Shown one piece after another: positions 49,315-58,362 of a DNA stretch of 64,000 nucleotides; positions within the stretch are counted from its first letter, which is position 1, and each line of letters opens with the position of its first letter. This DNA comes from Devosia sp. 66-22 (lineage in GTDB: Bacteria; Pseudomonadota; Alphaproteobacteria; Rhizobiales; Devosiaceae): NCBI GenBank assembly GCA_001899065.1, contig MKUZ01000017.1, positions 372,001 to 436,000 on the forward strand, in the 5' to 3' direction. A model generated the notes under the pieces. The model saw only the letters and a program-made list of their open reading frames with translations. It searched no databases and was not told where the DNA came from. The position numbers and the translations under genes are program-made.

Positions 49315-50430
49315 TCAGCCGGTGGCCGGCGCGACCGATGCGCGCGGGTCGCGGCGGCGGCGGTCGAAGCGGCGCAGCAGGGCCAGGGTGCCGAGCTCGA
49401 CCGGCAGGAACAGCACCGCGAGGGCGAGGCTGGCCGCCACCGACAGGGCGGCGATGCCGAGCGCCGAGGTGGCGGTGAGGGTGGCGTTCGCGTCGGTGAG
49501 GACAATCAGATTGGCGCTGAGCGACACGATGACGGCAAACTGAACGAGATAGAGCGGGAACGAGATGCGGCCGAGGAACTGCGAGATGCCCAGGCTGAGG
49601 AAGCGCTGCGCCGGCAGGCCGTAGCGGGCCGCGACGAAAATGCCCGTGCCGATCAGCGCATAAGTGCGCAGGTCGCGCTCGAGCAGTTGTGCGAAGGCGC
49701 CGACCAGCAGCAGCGTGAGCAGCGCCATCGAGGCGAGAAAGCTGCCGAGCGGCGCGGCCGTCTTGGGGAGCAGGCCGTCGCGTTCGGCCAGCGCGACGAG
49801 CGCGCCGACAAAGAAGCATGCGGCCAGTGGGAACATCAGCAGCGTCAGCGCGGTGAGCAGGAGCAGCGGCGAATAGGGCTCGCGCTGGTAGTGCTCGTTC
49901 TGCGACAGCACGAACAGCGCGAACGAGCCCCACAGCTCGATCAGCATCGTCCACAGGAAGGGATTGTAGTTGTGCGCGACGGGCCAGGTGTAGGTCCACG
50001 CAAAGGCGAAGGCGATCGCGCTCCCTAGATGCGGATCAAAGCGCAGGAACGAGCCGTACCATTGCGGCATGGCGGTGATCCGGTGCGCCTCACGCGTCGG
50101 CGTCAGCCCGAGCGCCATCAGCAGCAGCACGAGCGCCGTGGCGGCAATGATCGGCACGGTGAGACGCACATAGCGGCGCAGGAATGCGACGAGCAGCGGC
50201 GGGTTGTCCGGATTGCGCCAGCGGCGGAGCGTCAGCACATAGCCCGAAATCGTGAGGAACACCGCGACGGCGACGATACCGTTGCCCACGAGTGCCGCGA
50301 CGAAGGTGTGCAGCTCGGGGAAGCGCACGCCGAAGGTCTGCCACAGGCAATGGTAGATCACCACCGACAGCGCGGCCCAGCCCCGTAGGCCGTCGAGCAC
50401 GGCAAGTCTGTGTTCCGGCGCCGCCACCAT
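49315..50430 (-). CDS. Acyltransferase family 3 membrane protein
   Basis: A 371-residue paralogue of the gene at 48104. DGLRGWAALSVVIYH, then FLTISGYVLTLRRW and LRRYVRLTVPI. Upstream of it in the same direction, with 74 bases between. Likely modifies a surface polysaccharide or lipid. Acceptor unknown. Confidence 0.88.
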   Translation of the reverse strand: MVAAPEHRLAVLDGLRGWAALSVVIYHCLWQTFGVRFPELHTFVAALVGNGIVAVAVFLTISGYVLTLRRWRNPDNPPLLVAFLRRYVRLTVPIIAATALVLLLMALGLTPTREAHRITAMPQWYGSFLRFDPHLGSAIAFAFAWTYTWPVAHNYNPFLWTMLIELWGSFALFVLSQNEHYQREPYSPLLLLTALTLLMFPLAACFFVGALVALAERDGLLPKTAAPLGSFLASMALLTLLLVGAFAQLLERDLRTYALIGTGIFVAARYGLPAQRFLSLGISQFLGRISFPLYLVQFAVIVSLSANLIVLTDANATLTATSALGIAALSVAASLALAVLFLPVELGTLALLRRFDRRRRDPRASVAPATG

Positions 50431-50482
50431 CGGTGCTCCCCCCGCGCCCGATGCTTGTCGGAGCGGGGGAGGCGCGTCAACC

Positions 50483-52366
50483 CTAGGCCCGCTCTGCCGC
50501 CTCGAGCTGTTCGCTGAGCGCGAGCCAGCGCTCTTCGGTCGCCGCGATGTCGGCGCTGAAGCGGGCCTTGTCCTTGCCCAGCAGGATCACGCGCTCGGGC
50601 GCGCCGTCATAGACCTTGGGGTCGGCGAGGATGGCCTCGACCTTCTCGAGTTCGGTGCGCAGGCGCGTGAGCTTCTGCTCGGCCTCCTTGATCGACTTGC
50701 GCAGCGGCGCCACTTCGAGCCGGCGCGCGGCGCTGTCCTGCCGCGCTGCCTTCTTGTCGACGAGCGGCGCAGGGACGGGGGCCGCGCTCTTCTGCGGCTT
50801 GTCCTTTCCCGAAGTCAGCATGCGCTGGTAGCTGTCGAGGTCCTCGTCGAACTCCTCGATCGTGCCGTTCTGCGCGATCCACAGCTTGTCGACCGTGGCT
50901 TCGATCAGGTGCCGGTCGTGCGAAATGATCAGCACGGCGCCGGTGTAGTCGTTGAGCGCCTCGACCAGCGCGTCGCGGCTGTCGATGTCGAGATGGTTGG
51001 TCGGCTCGTCGAGAATGAGCATGCCCGGTCCGCCGAAGGTGATGAGCCCCAGCAGCAGGCGCGCGCGCTCGCCGCCCGAGAGGTTCTTGACCAGCGTGTC
51101 CATGCGCGAGGTGGTGAGCCCCATCTGCGCGATGCGCGAACGCCGCTTGGCCTCGCTGTCATAGGGCATCAGCGCGATGACGTGCTCGAGCGGCGTCTGC
51201 TCCGGCTTGAGCTTGTCCATCTGGTGCTGCGCGAAATAGGCGATCTCGAGCCCCTTGCTCCGCCGCATCTCGCCGCCCATCGGCTTGAGGTCGCCGGCCA
51301 GCAGCTTGGCGAAGGTCGACTTGCCGTTGCCGTTGACACCCACCAGCGCGATGCGGTCGTCCGGATCGATGCGGTTGGTGATGTGGCGCAGCACGACATG
51401 GTCGCCATAGCCCACCGACACATTGTCGAAGGTGAGCATGGGCGCCGCCGGAATCTTCTTGGGATTCTGAAACTGGAACGGCGCTGCATATTCGTCGAAC
51501 ATCGCGGCCGGCGGCTTGAGCTTGGCGATCATCTTGACGCGCGCCTGCGCCTGCTTGGCCTTTGTCGCCTTGGCCTTGAAGCGGTCGACGAAGCTCTGAA
51601 GGTGCGCGATCTGCTCGAGCGTGCGTTCGCGCGCCTTGTTGTTGAGTTCCATCTGCATACGGCGCGTTTCCTCGAAAACGTCGTAGCCGCCCTTGTAATA
51701 GGTCAGCTTGCCGCGCTCGAGATGGACGATCGAGTTGACCGCCTTGTTGAGCAGGTCGCGGTCATGGCTGATCATGAACACGGTGTAGGGATAGGTCGCG
51801 AGATACTTCTCGAGCCACAGCGTGCCTTCGAGGTCGAGATAGTTGGTCGGCTCGTCGAGCAGCAGCAGGTCGGGCTGGCTGAACAGCACCCCCGCCAGCG
51901 CCACGCGCATGCGCCAGCCGCCCGACAGCTCCGAGGTCGGGCCGAGCTGCCGGTCCTGCTCGAAGCCGAGGCCCTTGAGGATGGTCGCGGCGCGCGCTTC
52001 GGCCGTGTGCGCATCGATGTCGGCGAGGCGCATGTGAATGTCGGAGATGCGGTGCGCATCGGTCGCCGTCTCGGCTTCCGCAAGGAGCGCGGCGCGCTCG
52101 GCGTCGGCGGCCATGACGGTTTCGAGCACGCTCAGATTGGTGGCGGGGGCCTCCTGCGCGACGCCGCCGATCCGGGCGCGCCTGTTGACCTCGATGGTGC
52201 CGGCATCGAGCGCGATCTGGCCCTGGATCAGCTTGAACAGCGTAGTCTTGCCGCTGCCGTTCTTGCCCACGAAGCCGGCCTTCGCCCCATCCGGCAGCAC
52301 AAGGGAAGCGCCCTCGAACAGAGGACGGCCCTGGATGCGGTAGGTGATGTTTGAAATCGTGAGCAT
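50483..52366 (-). CDS. ABC-F family ATPase
   Basis: A 627-residue translation-factor-type ABC protein with two ABC domains and no membrane part. Walker A GKNGSGKTT near residue 35 and GVNGNGKST near 346; signatures LSGGWRM and LSGGERAR. The interdomain linker is typical of ABC-F. A C-terminal coiled coil follows (from about residue 555). Relatives (Uup, YheS) act on ribosomes. ATG 52366 chosen. Confidence 0.93.
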   Translation of the reverse strand: MLTISNITYRIQGRPLFEGASLVLPDGAKAGFVGKNGSGKTTLFKLIQGQIALDAGTIEVNRRARIGGVAQEAPATNLSVLETVMAADAERAALLAEAETATDAHRISDIHMRLADIDAHTAEARAATILKGLGFEQDRQLGPTSELSGGWRMRVALAGVLFSQPDLLLLDEPTNYLDLEGTLWLEKYLATYPYTVFMISHDRDLLNKAVNSIVHLERGKLTYYKGGYDVFEETRRMQMELNNKARERTLEQIAHLQSFVDRFKAKATKAKQAQARVKMIAKLKPPAAMFDEYAAPFQFQNPKKIPAAPMLTFDNVSVGYGDHVVLRHITNRIDPDDRIALVGVNGNGKSTFAKLLAGDLKPMGGEMRRSKGLEIAYFAQHQMDKLKPEQTPLEHVIALMPYDSEAKRRSRIAQMGLTTSRMDTLVKNLSGGERARLLLGLITFGGPGMLILDEPTNHLDIDSRDALVEALNDYTGAVLIISHDRHLIEATVDKLWIAQNGTIEEFDEDLDSYQRMLTSGKDKPQKSAAPVPAPLVDKKAARQDSAARRLEVAPLRKSIKEAEQKLTRLRTELEKVEAILADPKVYDGAPERVILLGKDKARFSADIAATEERWLALSEQLEAAERA

Positions 52367-52561
52367 TTGCGGCGGCTGATATAGCGGCCCGGAGCAGATG
52401 TCCAACGGCGGCGTGGCCGGCCAGCCCTCCCACCGGCTGTGCCGGGGACCCGCGCGGCGTGGGTATGGGCGCTTTGCCGCGCCACCAGCCGCCCCGTCTT
52501 GCGCCGGTCATCCCCTTTGGATATGAACCCCCACCTTTTCCGCCAGTTTCAGGACATTCCC

Positions 52562-52984
52562 ATGGCTCTCGAGCGCACCTTCTCGATCATCAAACCCGAC
52601 GCGACCCGTCGCAACATCACCGGCAAGATCATTGCCAAGATCGAAGAGGCCGGTCTGCGCGTCGTGGCGTCCAAGCGCATCCACATGACCCGCGAGCAGG
52701 CCCAGGGCTTCTACGCCGTCCACAAGGACCGCCCGTTCTACGGTGAACTGGTCGAGCAGATGATCGCTTCACCGGTCGTCGTCCAGGTGCTGGAAGGCGA
52801 GAACGCCATCCTCAAATACCGCGAGACGATGGGCGCGACGAACCCGGCCAATGCGGCGCCGGGCACCATCCGCAAGGATTTCGCCCTCTCGGTCGGCGAG
52901 AACTCGGTGCACGGCTCGGACGCTCCCGAGACCGCGGCGCAGGAGATCAAGTTCTTCTTCACCGACGCCGAAATCGTCGGCTAA
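52562..52984 (+). CDS. ndk: Nucleoside-diphosphate kinase
   Basis: Makes NTPs from NDPs; 140 residues. [12 protein letters not shown] near the start, and His117 in NSVHGSD is the phospho-His. AGGA upstream of ATG 52562. A terminator follows. Confidence 0.97.
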
Positions 52985-52993
52985 GACTTCAGG

Positions 52994-53022
52994 GGCCGGC
53001 AGCGATGCCGGCCTTTTCGTTT
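52994..53022 (+). terminator. Intrinsic terminator after ndk
   Basis: GGCCGGC (52994-53000) pairs with GCCGGCC (53007-53013), followed by TTTTCGTTTT. Good stem and T tract ten bases after the ndk stop. Confidence 0.8.
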
Positions 53023-53051
53023 TGGGCCGTCGTCTTCAGGGGAAATGAGCC

Positions 53052-53351
53052 ATGCCTTACGTCCGCGTCGATATTCTCGAGGGCCTGACGACCAAGCAGA
53101 AGCTCGCGATCCACAAGGGCATCACGGACCTCCTGGTCAAGGTTGCCGGTAAGAACCCGGACTACACCTTCATCTCGATCAACGAAGTCTCCGACGAGAA
53201 CTGGGGCCACAAGGGGACCTCGATCGCCGAGCTGAAGAAGGCGGGGCAGTTCGGGGTCAAGGCGGCTCCGGCCAAGACGGCCGCTTCGAAGGCTCCGGCA
53301 CGGAAAGCTGTCGCCAGGGCGCCGATCAAGCGCGGCCCGGCCAAGAAATAA
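53052..53351 (+). CDS. 4-oxalocrotonate-tautomerase-like protein with basic tail
   Basis: A 99-residue protein. The first 60 residues are a tautomerase fold with Pro2 (MPYVRVDILEG), the catalytic Pro after Met removal. Residues 68-99 are a Lys/Ala/Pro tail like histone H1 (AAPAKTAASKAPARKA). The tail is unusual for the family. Its stop overlaps the next gene by one base. Confidence 0.85.
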   Translation: MPYVRVDILEGLTTKQKLAIHKGITDLLVKVAGKNPDYTFISINEVSDENWGHKGTSIAELKKAGQFGVKAAPAKTAASKAPARKAVARAPIKRGPAKK

Positions 53352-53536
53352 TGCCGGAAATTCTCATCCATATCGCCGAGGGCCGCTCGGCCGAATCCAA
53401 GAAGGCGCTGATGCAGGACATCACCGATGCGGTGGTGAAGAACTTCGGTGTTCCGCCCGACCGCGTCGTGGTGCAGATCGTCGAGTCGCCCAAGCACAAC
53501 AAGTCGCGCGGCGGCGTGCTGTTCAGCGAGATGTAG
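53351..53536 (+). CDS. 4-oxalocrotonate tautomerase family protein
   Basis: A 61-residue, single-domain tautomerase with Pro2 (MPEILIHIAEGRS) and the usual length. Starts on the last base of the upstream tautomerase stop, so the pair may form a hetero-oligomer or just be coupled. Substrate unknown. Confidence 0.88.
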   Translation: MPEILIHIAEGRSAESKKALMQDITDAVVKNFGVPPDRVVVQIVESPKHNKSRGGVLFSEM

Positions 53537-53660
53537 CCCGGCGCTCCGGCCACCAGACGAGCGCCATCACCGCCTTGCCGCCCCACGCCATCCAGCTGCC
53601 GATCGCAAAGATCGGCAGATAGTGCTGTGCGCTCGTGGTGAGCGCGAAGATGCCGGCCGA
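53523..53660 (-). pseudogene. Fragment of a membrane protein C-terminus
   Basis: Minus-strand reading ends in IFALTTSAQHYLPIFAIGSW and MAWGGKAVMALVWWPERR, strongly hydrophobic and with high GC3, like a real C-terminus. No start or upstream sequence is found, and the DUF3606 gene lies beyond. Probably a remnant of a lost membrane protein. Confidence 0.35.
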
Positions 53661-53718
53661 TGGAACCCTCGGACTCCGCTCTCGTTTCGCCTGCACGACG
53701 AGACCGGAGACGCATACC

Positions 53719-53907
53719 ATGAGCGACAACAAGAGCTTTGTCGGCGGGCAGGATCGCGCCCGCGTGGCCGGCGAGGAAGAGTACGAAGTCCAGGCCTTCG
53801 CTCGCCGCCACGGCATGTCGCCGCAGGAAGTGCGCGACATGATCGAGCGTATCGGCGGCGACCGCGACGCGCTCGAACGCGAGGCCGCCAAGCTGCGGCG
53901 GCACTAG
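53719..53907 (+). CDS. DUF3606 small protein
   Basis: A 62-residue soluble protein of the DUF3606 family: QDRARVAGEEEYEVQAFARR and HGMSPQEVRDMIERIGGDRD. Common in rhizobia, often in stress contexts; function unknown. ATG 53719. Confidence 0.85.
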   Translation: MSDNKSFVGGQDRARVAGEEEYEVQAFARRHGMSPQEVRDMIERIGGDRDALEREAAKLRRH

Positions 53908-54003
53908 CCCGCCGAACGCCCCGGGGCATGGCTGACATGCGTGCCCGGCGCTTGCCGGGCCGTTCCTTTGCGCCCATTTTCCGGGCGTGAAAGGAGAGCC
54001 GCT

Positions 54004-54165
54004 ATGGGTCTTATCCAGAACCTCAGGAACGCCCTCCGTAGCCCGTCTCGGCAAGAGCTCGAGCTGAATTATCTCAACGGCGCCACCTCCCGGGTGGACC
54101 TCGAGATCCGCCAGCGCGAGATCGACCGCGGCAAGTTCCGCCGCTCGACGCAGTTCGGCTACTAG
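54004..54165 (+). CDS. DUF3563 small protein
   Basis: A 53-residue protein. ELELNYLNGATSRVDLEIRQ and REIDRGKF match DUF3563. AAAGGAG precedes ATG 54004. Function unknown. It is upstream of the riboswitch. Confidence 0.8.
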   Translation: MGLIQNLRNALRSPSRQELELNYLNGATSRVDLEIRQREIDRGKFRRSTQFGY

Positions 54166-54177
54166 GCTAGAAGCCCC

Positions 54178-54226
54178 GGCGCGGGGACGACCCTGCGCCT
54201 TCACCTCTTTCGGACGGGACGACCCG
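54178..54226 (+). promoter_or_regulatory. Guanidine-II (mini-ykkC) riboswitch before sugE
   Basis: Two hairpins with ACGA loops. The first (54178-54199) is a nine-pair stem (one G-U) around ACGA at 54187-54190; the second (54215-54226) is CGGG-ACGA-CCCG. Tandem ACGR hairpins before a SugE/Gdx gene are the mini-ykkC signature, which senses guanidinium. The AGGAG ribosome site (54233) is seven bases after the second. Confidence 0.85.
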
Positions 54227-54245
54227 GCAAACAGGAGAAATCCCA

Positions 54246-54560
54246 ATGGCTTGGGTCTATCTCGTCACCGCTGGCCTGCTGGAAGTCGGCTGGGCCATCG
54301 GCCTCAAATACACCGAAGGCTTCACCCGCCTCGTGCCATCGGTGCTTACCGTGGGCAGCATGGTCCTGAGCGTTGCGCTGCTCGGCCTCGCGTTGCGCGA
54401 CCTGCCCGTCGGCACCGCCTATGCGATCTGGACCGGCATTGGCGCGGTCGGCGTCGCGGCTCTCGGCATCATGCTCTTCCAGGAGCCCGCCACGGCGATC
54501 CGCCTGGCCTCCATTGCCCTGATCGTGGTGGGCATCGTCGGCCTCAAATTCGCCTCCTGA
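54246..54560 (+). CDS. sugE: SMR transporter, guanidinium exporter type (Gdx/SugE)
   Basis: A 104-residue, four-helix small multidrug-resistance protein. The first helix carries Glu13 in [15 protein letters not shown], and [14 protein letters not shown] is in helix 3, both Gdx-type. With the riboswitch, the natural substrate is probably guanidinium, exported for protons. AGGAG precedes the ATG. Confidence 0.93.
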
Positions 54561-54750
54561 GCTGACGCGCCGCCGCGCGTTGCGGCGTCGCCACGGCGCC
54601 GCGACATTTTCGCGGGGCCACTCAAAAAATTATGGAACCTTTTGGGTTTTCGCGTAAGCATATGGACGCACGGACGAAATTCCGTGCCTCCAGGAGCAAC
54701 CCCTCGCAATGGCGGAGCGTCGGCCAAAGCGGTTTGTTGAAAGGCAAACC

Positions 54751-54939
54751 ATGCCCGTACGCGTGCCCGAAGTCGCCTCGGTTCTTGCGCTTCTTCTCGT
54801 CCTTCTCGTCGCCAGGCAGTTCCCCATGTTCGATGGCGTGCCCATCAGGAGCATCATGGGGATCATCTCGCTGTCGTTCGCGATCTTCCTGTCGCTCCGG
54901 CTGTTCCAGTTCGAGCTGGCCAAAATCCGCGCCGAATAG
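54751..54939 (+). CDS. Small hypothetical membrane protein
   Basis: A 62-residue protein with two hydrophobic segments (ASVLALLLVLLVARQF and IMGIISLSFAIFLSL). ATG 54751 has AAAGG six bases upstream; ATG 54709 gives a 14-residue longer form. Not recognised. Confidence 0.5.
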   Translation: MPVRVPEVASVLALLLVLLVARQFPMFDGVPIRSIMGIISLSFAIFLSLRLFQFELAKIRAE

Positions 54940-55106
54940 CCTGCGCTGGAGATGAATCCGGCTCGCGCTGCCCTGTGATAACTTGGCATCACCCCGCCGC
55001 TTTCATTGAAATTGGCGGCTCTGGCGCCCGGATTCGGCTCACAAACGGGAGAGCCATGCGCGGAGCGGGGTTCCTCAGGTCCCGGTCGTGGGCTAGGAGC
55101 GCGGCC

Positions 55107-55451
55107 ATGACCCGCGTCTTGGCCATCGTTGTGACGCTGCTTGCCCTGGGCAGCGTCTTTGCCACCGCCGGTGCCCATGCGGCGCCGGTGGCGATGGTCG
55201 TCGTCCAGGCGGCACCGGCGGCCGACAGCTGCGCCGAGCCACGGATCGAGATCCGCTACATGGTCAAGCTCTGCGCCAAGCGGCATGCCGCGGGGCTGCC
55301 CTGTGCACCGGTGCCGGTTATCCTGCCGCCGCTGATGGGGGCGTTCGGGCAGGTGCAACCGCCGGTCGAGATCGCCTCGATCGTCGAGGGCGGACGGCTC
55401 GATGCGCAGTGGGACCGCCTCTACCGACCACCACGGTCGGCGCTGGCCTGA
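55107..55451 (+). CDS. Secreted hypothetical protein
   Basis: A 114-residue protein with a signal peptide (LAIVVTLLALGSVFATAGAH) and three Cys in the mature part (SCAEP, KLCAK, LPCAP). AGGAG precedes ATG 55107. No family recognised. Confidence 0.6.
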   Translation: MTRVLAIVVTLLALGSVFATAGAHAAPVAMVVVQAAPAADSCAEPRIEIRYMVKLCAKRHAAGLPCAPVPVILPPLMGAFGQVQPPVEIASIVEGGRLDAQWDRLYRPPRSALA

Positions 55452-55533
55452 GCCTTTGACCTGAGCGCGGCACGCGGGTTTCGCGGCCTTTCACCATTCG
55501 CCGGAGCGATCCGGCCAGACGAGACATTTCGAC

Positions 55534-56202
55534 ATGACCACCATGACCCTTGCGCGGCCCGATCGCCGCAGCTTTCTCATTGGCGCGGCGAGCATCGCGG
55601 CGCTCGGCCTCGCCGGCTGTGCCACCACGCCCAGCAGGATCGAGCCGGACCTGCCGTCCGAAGAGACGCGCCGCATGTATGGCGCGCTCCCCAATGAGCG
55701 CTTCCCCATCCCCGCCGCCCGCATCGACCGGCTCGACTCGCGCTACTACCGCCAGGTCGTGACCGACCCCACCGGCGCGCGCCCCGGCACCGTCGTCGTC
55801 GATACGCCCAACCGGTTCCTGTACTGGGTGATGGAAGGCGGCCGGGCCATGCGCTATGGCGTCGGCATCGGCCGCGACGGCTTCGACTGGGGTGGCACGG
55901 GGACGATCGCCTACAAGCGCGAATGGCCGCGCTGGACCCCGCCGGCCGAGATGATCGTCCGCCAGCCCGAGCTCGAAAAGTACCGCAACGGCATGGAGCC
56001 GGGCCTCGAGAACCCGCTCGGCGCGCGCGCCCTCTACATCTTCCAGAACGGGCAGGACACGCTCTATCGCATCCATGCCACGCTCGATGTCGAGACCATC
56101 GGCAAGGCCATTTCGAGCGGCTGCGTGCGGCTGCTCGCGCAGGACGTCATCGATCTCTATGAGCGCGTGCCCAGCGGCTCGCCGATCATCGTCCAGCAGT
56201 GA
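55534..56202 (+). CDS. L,D-transpeptidase lipoprotein (SSGC variant)
   Basis: A 222-residue YkuD protein. The N-terminus has RRSFLIG (twin-arginine type) and a lipobox LAGC. The domain runs from TVVVDTPNRFLYWV to the active site AISSGCVRLLAQD; upstream His in RIHATLD. Ser replaces the usual His of SHGC, common in one subgroup. Confidence 0.9.
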   Translation: MTTMTLARPDRRSFLIGAASIAALGLAGCATTPSRIEPDLPSEETRRMYGALPNERFPIPAARIDRLDSRYYRQVVTDPTGARPGTVVVDTPNRFLYWVMEGGRAMRYGVGIGRDGFDWGGTGTIAYKREWPRWTPPAEMIVRQPELEKYRNGMEPGLENPLGARALYIFQNGQDTLYRIHATLDVETIGKAISSGCVRLLAQDVIDLYERVPSGSPIIVQQ

Positions 56203-56271
56203 TGTCAGGCATCACAGCAATCAATGGGCGGTCCTGCTGACAGCGGGGCCGCCCCGGCGTAGTTTCGCGCC

Positions 56272-58362
56272 ATGAACAAGCCTGTTGTCGCTCGCGTTGC
56301 CCGTTCGGTCTGCCCGCATGACTGCCCGTCGACCTGCGCACTCGACGTCGAGATCGTCGACGCCCACACCATCGGACGCGTCCGCGGCGCCAAAGACGAC
56401 CCGTACACGGCCGGCGTGATCTGCGAGAAGGTGGCGCGCTACGCCGAGCGCATCCACCATCCCGGCCGCCTGACCCATCCGCTGCGCCGCGTCGGCGCAA
56501 AGGGCGAGGGGCGCTGGCAGCCGATCTCGTGGGACGACGCCTTCGACGAGATCGTCGCCAGATGGGAGCGGATCGAGGCCGAGTTCGGCGCCGAGGCGAT
56601 CTGGCCCTATTTCTACGCCGGCACGATGGGTCATGTGCATCGCGACGGCATCAACCGGCTGCGCACGGCGCGCGGCTATTCCGACCAGTACGACACCATC
56701 TGCACCGGCGCGGCCTGGCCGGGCTATCTCGCCGGCACGGGCCTTCTCGCCGGGCCGAACCCCGAACTGATGGCCGAAGCCGACTGTGTCGTGATCTGGG
56801 GCACCAATGCGGTCAACACCCAGGTCAATGTGATGACCCACGCCATGCGCGCCCGCAAGGAGCGCGGCGCCAGGATTGTCGCCGTCGACATCTACATGAA
56901 CGGCACCATGGAGCAGGCCGACATGCCCATCCTGCTCCGCCCCGGCAGCGACGGCGCCTTCGCGCTGGGCGTCATGCATGTGCTGCTGCGCGATGGGCTC
57001 GCCGATCGCGCGTACCTCGCGCGGATGACCGACTTCGACGCCGAGGTTGAAGCGCACATCCTGTCGAAGACGCCGGATTGGGCGTCGTCGGTGACGGGCG
57101 TGCCGGTGGCCGACATCGAAGCCTTCGCCCGTCTCGTGGGCACGACGCCTAAGACCTATTTCCGTCTCGGCTACGGCTTCACGCGCCAGCGCAACGGCTC
57201 GACCAACATGCATGCGGCGCTCTGCATCCCCGCAGTCACCGGTGCGTGGCAGCATCGCGCGGGCGGTGCCTTCCACTCCAATTCGGGCAGTTGGCATCTC
57301 GACAAGTCGCTGATCGAGGGCACGCGCATGGGCAAGGCCGGGCGCGAGCTCGACATGTCCGAGATCGGCAAGATCCTCACCGGCGACCGCAAGGCGCTCA
57401 AGGGGGCGACGCCGGTCAAGGCGCTGTTCATCCAGAACACCAATCCGGTCAACGTCGCGCCCGAGCAGGAGCTGGTGCGCGCGGGCGTCGCGCGCGACGA
57501 CCTGTTCACCGTCGTGCACGAGCAGTTCATGACCGAGACGGCGCAGGTCGCCGATATCGTGCTGCCCGCCACGATGTTCCTCGAGCACAATGACTACTAT
57601 CGCCGTGGCGGCCACACCCGCATGCTGATCGGCCCCAAACTGGTCGAGGCGCCGGGCGAATGCCGTTCCAATTTCGAGGTGGTCAACGAACTGCTGCGCC
57701 GCTTGGGCAGCACCGACGAGTCGCTGGGCTTCACCGACCGGCAGATGGTCGCCGAGACGATGCGCCGGTCCGACTATGGCGATCTCGACGAGATCGAAAA
57801 GACCGGCTTCATCGAGCTGGGCATGTCCGACGAGAGAGCGCGCTTCGCCGACGGCTTCAACTTCGCCGATGGCCGGTTCCGCTTCCGCCCGGCCTGGGCC
57901 GAGATCGCGCAGCGCAAGGGCTATCTGTGGACCATCGACCCCGCTGCCGTACCGCCCATGGTCGACTGGTGGGACATCAACGAGAAGACCAGCGCCGAGC
58001 TGCCGTTCCGGCTTTCGACCAGTCCCTCGCGCAGCTTCCTCAACTCGACCTTCACCGAGACACTGGGCTCGCAGAAGCGCCAGCCGATGCCGACTGTCCT
58101 CATCCGGCCTGACGACGCGGCGGCCAACGGCATCGCCGACGGCGCCAAGGTGACGCTCGGCAATCATCGTGGCACGGTGGAGCTGACAGCGGTGCTCTTT
58201 GCCGGCCTGCCGCCGGGATGCCTCATCGCCGAGGGCGTTCACCCCAACCGCTCGCATGAGGGCGGTAAGGGCATCAACACGCTGATCGGCTCCGACCAGG
58301 TGCCGCCCTTTGGTGGAGTGGCGTTCCACGACGCCACGGTGTGGATTCGTACGGCGAGCTAG
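56272..58362 (+). CDS. Molybdopterin oxidoreductase
   Basis: A 696-residue, bis-MGD enzyme of the DMSO-reductase family. C14-x3-C18-x3-C22 and C51 bind a 4Fe-4S cluster. No twin-arginine signal, so cytoplasmic. Substrate not clear. No Fe-S or membrane subunit is adjacent; the next gene is a TauE exporter, convergent. Confidence 0.88.
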   Translation: MNKPVVARVARSVCPHDCPSTCALDVEIVDAHTIGRVRGAKDDPYTAGVICEKVARYAERIHHPGRLTHPLRRVGAKGEGRWQPISWDDAFDEIVARWERIEAEFGAEAIWPYFYAGTMGHVHRDGINRLRTARGYSDQYDTICTGAAWPGYLAGTGLLAGPNPELMAEADCVVIWGTNAVNTQVNVMTHAMRARKERGARIVAVDIYMNGTMEQADMPILLRPGSDGAFALGVMHVLLRDGLADRAYLARMTDFDAEVEAHILSKTPDWASSVTGVPVADIEAFARLVGTTPKTYFRLGYGFTRQRNGSTNMHAALCIPAVTGAWQHRAGGAFHSNSGSWHLDKSLIEGTRMGKAGRELDMSEIGKILTGDRKALKGATPVKALFIQNTNPVNVAPEQELVRAGVARDDLFTVVHEQFMTETAQVADIVLPATMFLEHNDYYRRGGHTRMLIGPKLVEAPGECRSNFEVVNELLRRLGSTDESLGFTDRQMVAETMRRSDYGDLDEIEKTGFIELGMSDERARFADGFNFADGRFRFRPAWAEIAQRKGYLWTIDPAAVPPMVDWWDINEKTSAELPFRLSTSPSRSFLNSTFTETLGSQKRQPMPTVLIRPDDAAANGIADGAKVTLGNHRGTVELTAVLFAGLPPGCLIAEGVHPNRSHEGGKGINTLIGSDQVPPFGGVAFHDATVWIRTAS

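Follow-up and report, generated by a model that had tools for sequence, protein, structure and literature searches.

The window analyzed here, a stretch of 64,000 nucleotides from Devosia sp. 66-22 (contig MKUZ01000017.1, positions 372,001 to 436,000; genome size, 4.36 Mb), carries a guanidine-II (mini-ykkC) riboswitch directly upstream of gdx (sugE), which, with a probability that we put at about 95%, turns on the translation of this exporter gene when guanidinium builds up in the Devosia cell. The pairing of mini-ykkC with SugE had been called a known one in an earlier note on this DNA, and the class itself, its association with gdx, and the logic of an on-switch are indeed already in print; the finding in the window is therefore ordinary, comprising a known class, a known partner gene, and normal dimensions. 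It adds one more gdx control site and predicts a guanidinium defense in Devosia.

Identification of the guanidine-II element

A scan of the whole window with Rfam returned RF01068 as the only match, at positions 54179 to 54227 of the forward strand, with 43.2 bits against a cutoff of 32 (11 bits above it; E value, 2.8e-5), while a permissive scan of positions 50000 to 58000 gave one additional match, far under its cutoff. The riboswitch, placed at 54178 to 54226 (+) by the Rfam match and the sequence, begins with hairpin P1 (54178 to 54199), in which nine pairs, one of them G-U (54178 to 54186 with 54191 to 54199), enclose an ACGA tetraloop at 54187 to 54190. A 15-nt linker (54200 to 54214) leads to hairpin P2 (54215 to 54226), in which four pairs (54215 to 54218 with 54223 to 54226) enclose a second ACGA tetraloop at 54219 to 54222. 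Both hairpins are backed by the sequence, by the Rfam alignment, and by covariation in relatives. A Shine-Dalgarno sequence, AGGAG, follows at 54233 to 54237 (+), 8 nt before the ATG at 54246, and the gap from the end of the element to the gdx start is 19 nt. Thus, the two ACGA-loop hairpins directly before sugE, one of them with nine pairs, and the AGGAG just after the second, all described in the earlier note, are present in the sequence, and its identification of the class was confirmed by running the Rfam mini-ykkC model that it had proposed as a check. Both loops are of the ACGR type and closed by GG/CC, the element lies in the gdx leader close to the ribosome site, and nothing speaks against the class assignment.

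A chance pair of hairpins in this G+C-rich DNA might be suspected, considering that single GGACGRCC cores are no commoner in the window than expected (7 found versus 10.9 expected). For the same reason, however, it is the tandem arrangement that carries the signal: the window contains GGGACGRCCC-N5..35-GGGACGRCCC a single time and none of 100 dinucleotide shuffles contains it, a result that, together with the Rfam score and the covariation, already refutes a chance origin and leaves it a negligible probability.

Across 33 aligned related elements, covariation scored 0.427 compared with 0.142 in shuffles, and the number of cells changed on both sides was 88 compared with 34.2, neither value being reached by any of 500 shuffles; slid versions of the alignment structure scored between 0.029 and 0.127. 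The plain count of doubly changed pairs showed no excess in these 33 elements (10 versus 9.7 in shuffles, reached in 350 of 500). All rows except L002 had been chosen by a pattern demanding stems of at least 4 pairs, which favors paired rows in the inner stem. Since the score and the paired cells exceed every one of the 500 shuffles as well as each slid version, the stems appear to be kept by compensatory change.

Among the fetched loci, 26 distinct gdx leaders contained the tandem GGACGRCC element, counted where the gene start ATGGCNTGGNTNTA lay no more than 90 nt from P2, so that L025 and L041, which have different starts, were missed. Across these leaders P1 measured 4 to 10 bp and was exactly 9 bp in 9, the commonest length, which rules out an unusual P1 and contradicts the description of the first stem as unusually long in the earlier note. 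The 15-base linker that was also singled out there does have this length but not a notable size: linkers spanned 7 to 20 nt in the 26 leaders (15 nt in 3), and the value lies inside the class range of 7 to 40 nt given in the available text of PMC7544219.

The gdx gene and its surroundings

The gene behind the element (54246 to 54560, +) encodes a protein of 104 amino acids of the SMR family, which by sequence is predicted to be a Gdx-type guanidinium/H+ antiporter. The product matched PF00893 (8.7e-28) and the NCBIfam SugE equivalog NF008512 (140.5 bits; cutoff, 126), and its best match among solved structures was Gdx-Clo (6wk5; 112.7 bits, 8.5e-32), with EmrE at 42.7 bits. The substrate-site residues E13, W16, S42, Y59, and W62, whose roles in SMR exporters are treated in the accessible portion of PMC7695847, are all present. 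A Qac-type multidrug pump, to which the riboswitch would be incidental, could be argued from membership in the SMR family and from the title of the NCBIfam model ("quaternary ammonium compound efflux SMR transporter SugE"), but it is very improbable in view of the margin of Gdx-Clo over EmrE and of W16, since that portion of PMC7695847 names Trp16 as the Gdx marker and Gly or Ala as the residue there in Qac proteins. The SugE equivalog score, the Gdx-Clo match, and the five residues support the Gdx-type exporter proposed in the earlier note. This was the sole SMR gene found in the genome in a search at E values up to 0.001.

Small genes related to DUF3606 and DUF3563 (the latter match below its cutoff) lie directly upstream of the riboswitch at 53722 to 54165, with 12 nt from the end of the stop codon of the DUF3563-like gene to P1. 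A conserved operon with these genes was rejected, since a DUF3563 relative preceded gdx in just 3 of the 12 loci tested, including the window (2 of the 11 others). A scan for promoters of the sigma-70-like type found none between 53850 and 54700, and searches of the genome found neither DUF1989, for guanidine breakdown, nor a guanidine-I riboswitch. Of 61 genomes searched, 28 had guanidine-II elements (over the cutoff in 24), including 14 of 19 genomes of the host's genus, its own genome included.

Proposed switching mechanism

The class is described as a translational on-switch in the available part of PMC12186494, and the scheme in the accessible text of PMC7544219 includes an anti-Shine-Dalgarno strand and two loops that kiss upon guanidinium binding. 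As published for the class, each ACGA loop of the window element would bind one guanidinium, followed by loop-loop kissing. Without ligand, the ribosome site would be held back, most likely by CUCUU in the linker (54205 to 54209), which by complementarity can pair with AGGAG around P2 in the same layout as the published scheme. The resulting protein would then move guanidinium out and protons in, as is known for the Gdx type.

Folding gave a mixed picture of the off-state. In the 85-nt window leader, the best fold with the linker:ribosome-site helix was suboptimal (−34.6 kcal/mol) compared with the minimum free energy (MFE) fold (−36.9 kcal/mol), in which the 3' arm of P2 pairs with gdx codons instead. 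Among the 23 gdx leaders folded with their gene start (start at most 40 nt from P2), the helix around P2 was at minimum energy in 5 (L006, L055, L064, L087, and L100), and the MFE fold lacked P2 in 15. The MFE fold of the window leader and the folds without P2 agree with a different off-state of the same riboswitch, in which early gdx codons (GGGTC) would capture the 3' arm of P2 and the ribosome site would be covered by a small hairpin, GGA-GAAA-UCC, until the ligand locks P2 and breaks both. We regard this alternative as possible but distinctly less probable, because the energy parameters are ignorant of the kissing contact and the ligand, the pairing may be incidental given that it uses the conserved MAW protein start, and leaders such as L064 and L087 do not fit it.

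As for pairing between the linker and the ribosome site, shuffled linkers paired equally well (window fraction, 0.69, not significant; mean over the 26 leaders, 0.59, with a single leader at 0.05 or below), and this pairing is consequently unsupported as a proven feature. Likewise, when both hairpins were forced in the 23 leaders, the ribosome site was on average no freer (mean unpaired fraction, 0.40 free and 0.36 forced), with unpairing up by more than 0.05 in 6 and down in 8. Because of the different MFE fold in the window, the folds without P2, the shuffled linkers, and the forced hairpins, sequestration by the linker is an off-state that we infer.

A second element and an orphan atpB in the same genome

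This genome also holds one copy of the element together with an orphan atpB. This second guanidine-II element is on another contig (C18:281380-281424, equal to L002:1545-1501, minus strand on L002) and scored 38.8 bits, with an identical score in the Rfam scan. It is flanked by a chaA-like gene and by an open reading frame of 57 amino acids that matched no Pfam family, after which comes a gene for the a-subunit of ATP synthase. The latter is a paralog of the housekeeping atpB elsewhere in the genome, which by eye is preceded by atpI and followed by atpE and a b-type subunit gene. GTTTTT follows P2 of the second element, which might for this reason also end transcription. The chaA-like gene (L002:2724-1559, minus strand) is split over two overlapping frames, through either a real frameshift or an assembly error, and forms one frame in all four relatives read (L021, L034, L037, and L040).

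An orphan AtpB clade associated with the element

AtpB proteins were counted only when they contained S-x-x-[VI]-RLF-[AGS]-x-[MIV]-[LYF]-AG, and those alike in their last 150 residues were counted once. The resulting 116 distinct proteins came from 79 of 80 loci of the nearest named relatives, from 8 of 30 and 27 of 30 loci in two further sets, and, for the remaining 2, from the search that found the second a-subunit gene of this genome. The 80-locus set (L049 to L128) comprised the named sequences nearest to the orphan AtpB among those found by a word search that included FAVMLAGH among its six words, thereby favoring Val; the searches for the two 30-locus sets did not use this word. An arginine of ATP-synthase subunit a is essential, and four residues after it Val was present in 79 of the 116 proteins and Asn, which we take to be Asn214 of E. 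coli subunit a, in 37. All 79 Val-type proteins were without atpE downstream (no same-strand tblastn match of the genome's own AtpE within 1,500 nt), and 68 had the tandem hairpin upstream by the strict pattern (11 did not), whereas all 37 Asn-type proteins had atpE downstream and none had the hairpins. For 78 of these 116 proteins (each of the 37 Asn-type and 41 of the 79 Val-type rows), a tree inferred by a quick method placed the Val group on one side of a branch with an SH-aLRT value of 98.

The upstream element was also sought with R2, a model built from 33 elements of Hyphomicrobiales (Rhizobiales), partly Devosiaceae atpB leaders. In 69 of the 80 loci, R2 had a match no more than 350 nt upstream of atpB at E values up to 0.1, three of the 80 (L049, L050, and L052) holding sequences used to build it. 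The 11 loci without an upstream R2 match comprised four Asn-type (L102, L125, L126, and L128) and seven Val-type loci; two of the latter, L112 and L124, do match the pattern. With Rfam's own model, an upstream match was found in 11 of 13 loci hand-chosen from the 80. In a control of 61 AtpB loci, taken from the two 30-locus sets and from the search that found the second a-subunit gene of this genome, R2 matched before atpB in the five of the Val type (L047, L160, L161, L162, and L165), and the sole other match, a weak one, was in L181 (21.7 bits; E value, 0.076), on the strand opposite to its atpB. An additional element also stands downstream of the orphan atpB in 18 of the 80 loci; of the 8 of these that were read, 7 have gdx after it, and L123 has no clean gdx frame. 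The same order, orphan atpB, element, and gdx, occurs in the Devosiaceae genome G024.

As a pattern across these sequences, the link between the element and the orphan AtpB is solid, and guanidinium control of this protein is likely by analogy, because the element belongs to the same class. The link was not mentioned in the literature searched, from which the original class paper was absent, so that prior notice is possible; the supplement of Weinberg 2010 reportedly contains a list of gene families behind mini-ykkC.

A probable wider guanidinium-stress regulon

The window switch probably belongs to a larger regulon for guanidinium stress in Hyphomicrobiales (Rhizobiales), in which the element also stands before the orphan atpB clade, characterized by Val for Asn, by the lack of a downstream c-subunit gene, and by a position beside chaA-type cation exchangers or directly upstream of riboswitch-gdx, depending on the genome. 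The boldest reading, which we consider unlikely, is that guanidinium, resembling the side chain of the essential arginine, disturbs the a-subunit channel and that the switch leads to production of a spare a-subunit that tolerates it and takes the place of the normal one. The orphan AtpB may instead form a cation or proton path of its own, or it may work with the chaA-type exchanger to keep ions in balance. If a guanidinium-sensing switch does precede this altered a-subunit, the target or cost of guanidinium in these bacteria may lie in the proton channel of ATP synthase, a possibility relevant to why bacteria treat this compound as a stressor.

In relatives, guanidine-II elements also precede genes for PACE-type (PF05232), DUF1989, and ACT_3 proteins, among other genes, with a single example of each of these types scanned. 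Proteins that look PACE-like by eye lie directly behind elements in L019, L020, L023, L024, L026, L029, and L036 (that of L024 was the one scanned as PF05232), and all but one of these seven loci have a P1 of 4 bp. In L027 and L028, an element below the Rfam cutoff precedes an ACT_3-type protein (scanned for L027). On an Agrobacterium contig, four guanidine-II elements occur within 1.7 kb (L071:3154-4847), and one of them, which is divergent, stands before an MrpF-like gene.

Comparison with known systems

The window protein belongs to the same family as Gdx-Clo and other Gdx-type SMR exporters and has the same substrate-site residues, differing from them by ordinary sequence divergence. For the second element, a parallel is offered by Na+-I riboswitches, some of which control genes of Na+-driven ATP synthases according to the available text of PMC9971707. 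Both are ion-sensing riboswitches before ATP-synthase genes, but the ligand and the RNA are different, and in the Devosia genome a lone a-subunit gene follows rather than a whole synthase operon. The window element closely resembles the RF01068 element before E. coli gdx/sugE, which likewise consists of two ACGR hairpins with a short linker and has the ribosome site directly after P2. The E. coli loops are ACGA and ACGG in the accessible part of PMC13064478, whereas both window loops are ACGA; otherwise, only the letters and the stem lengths differ.
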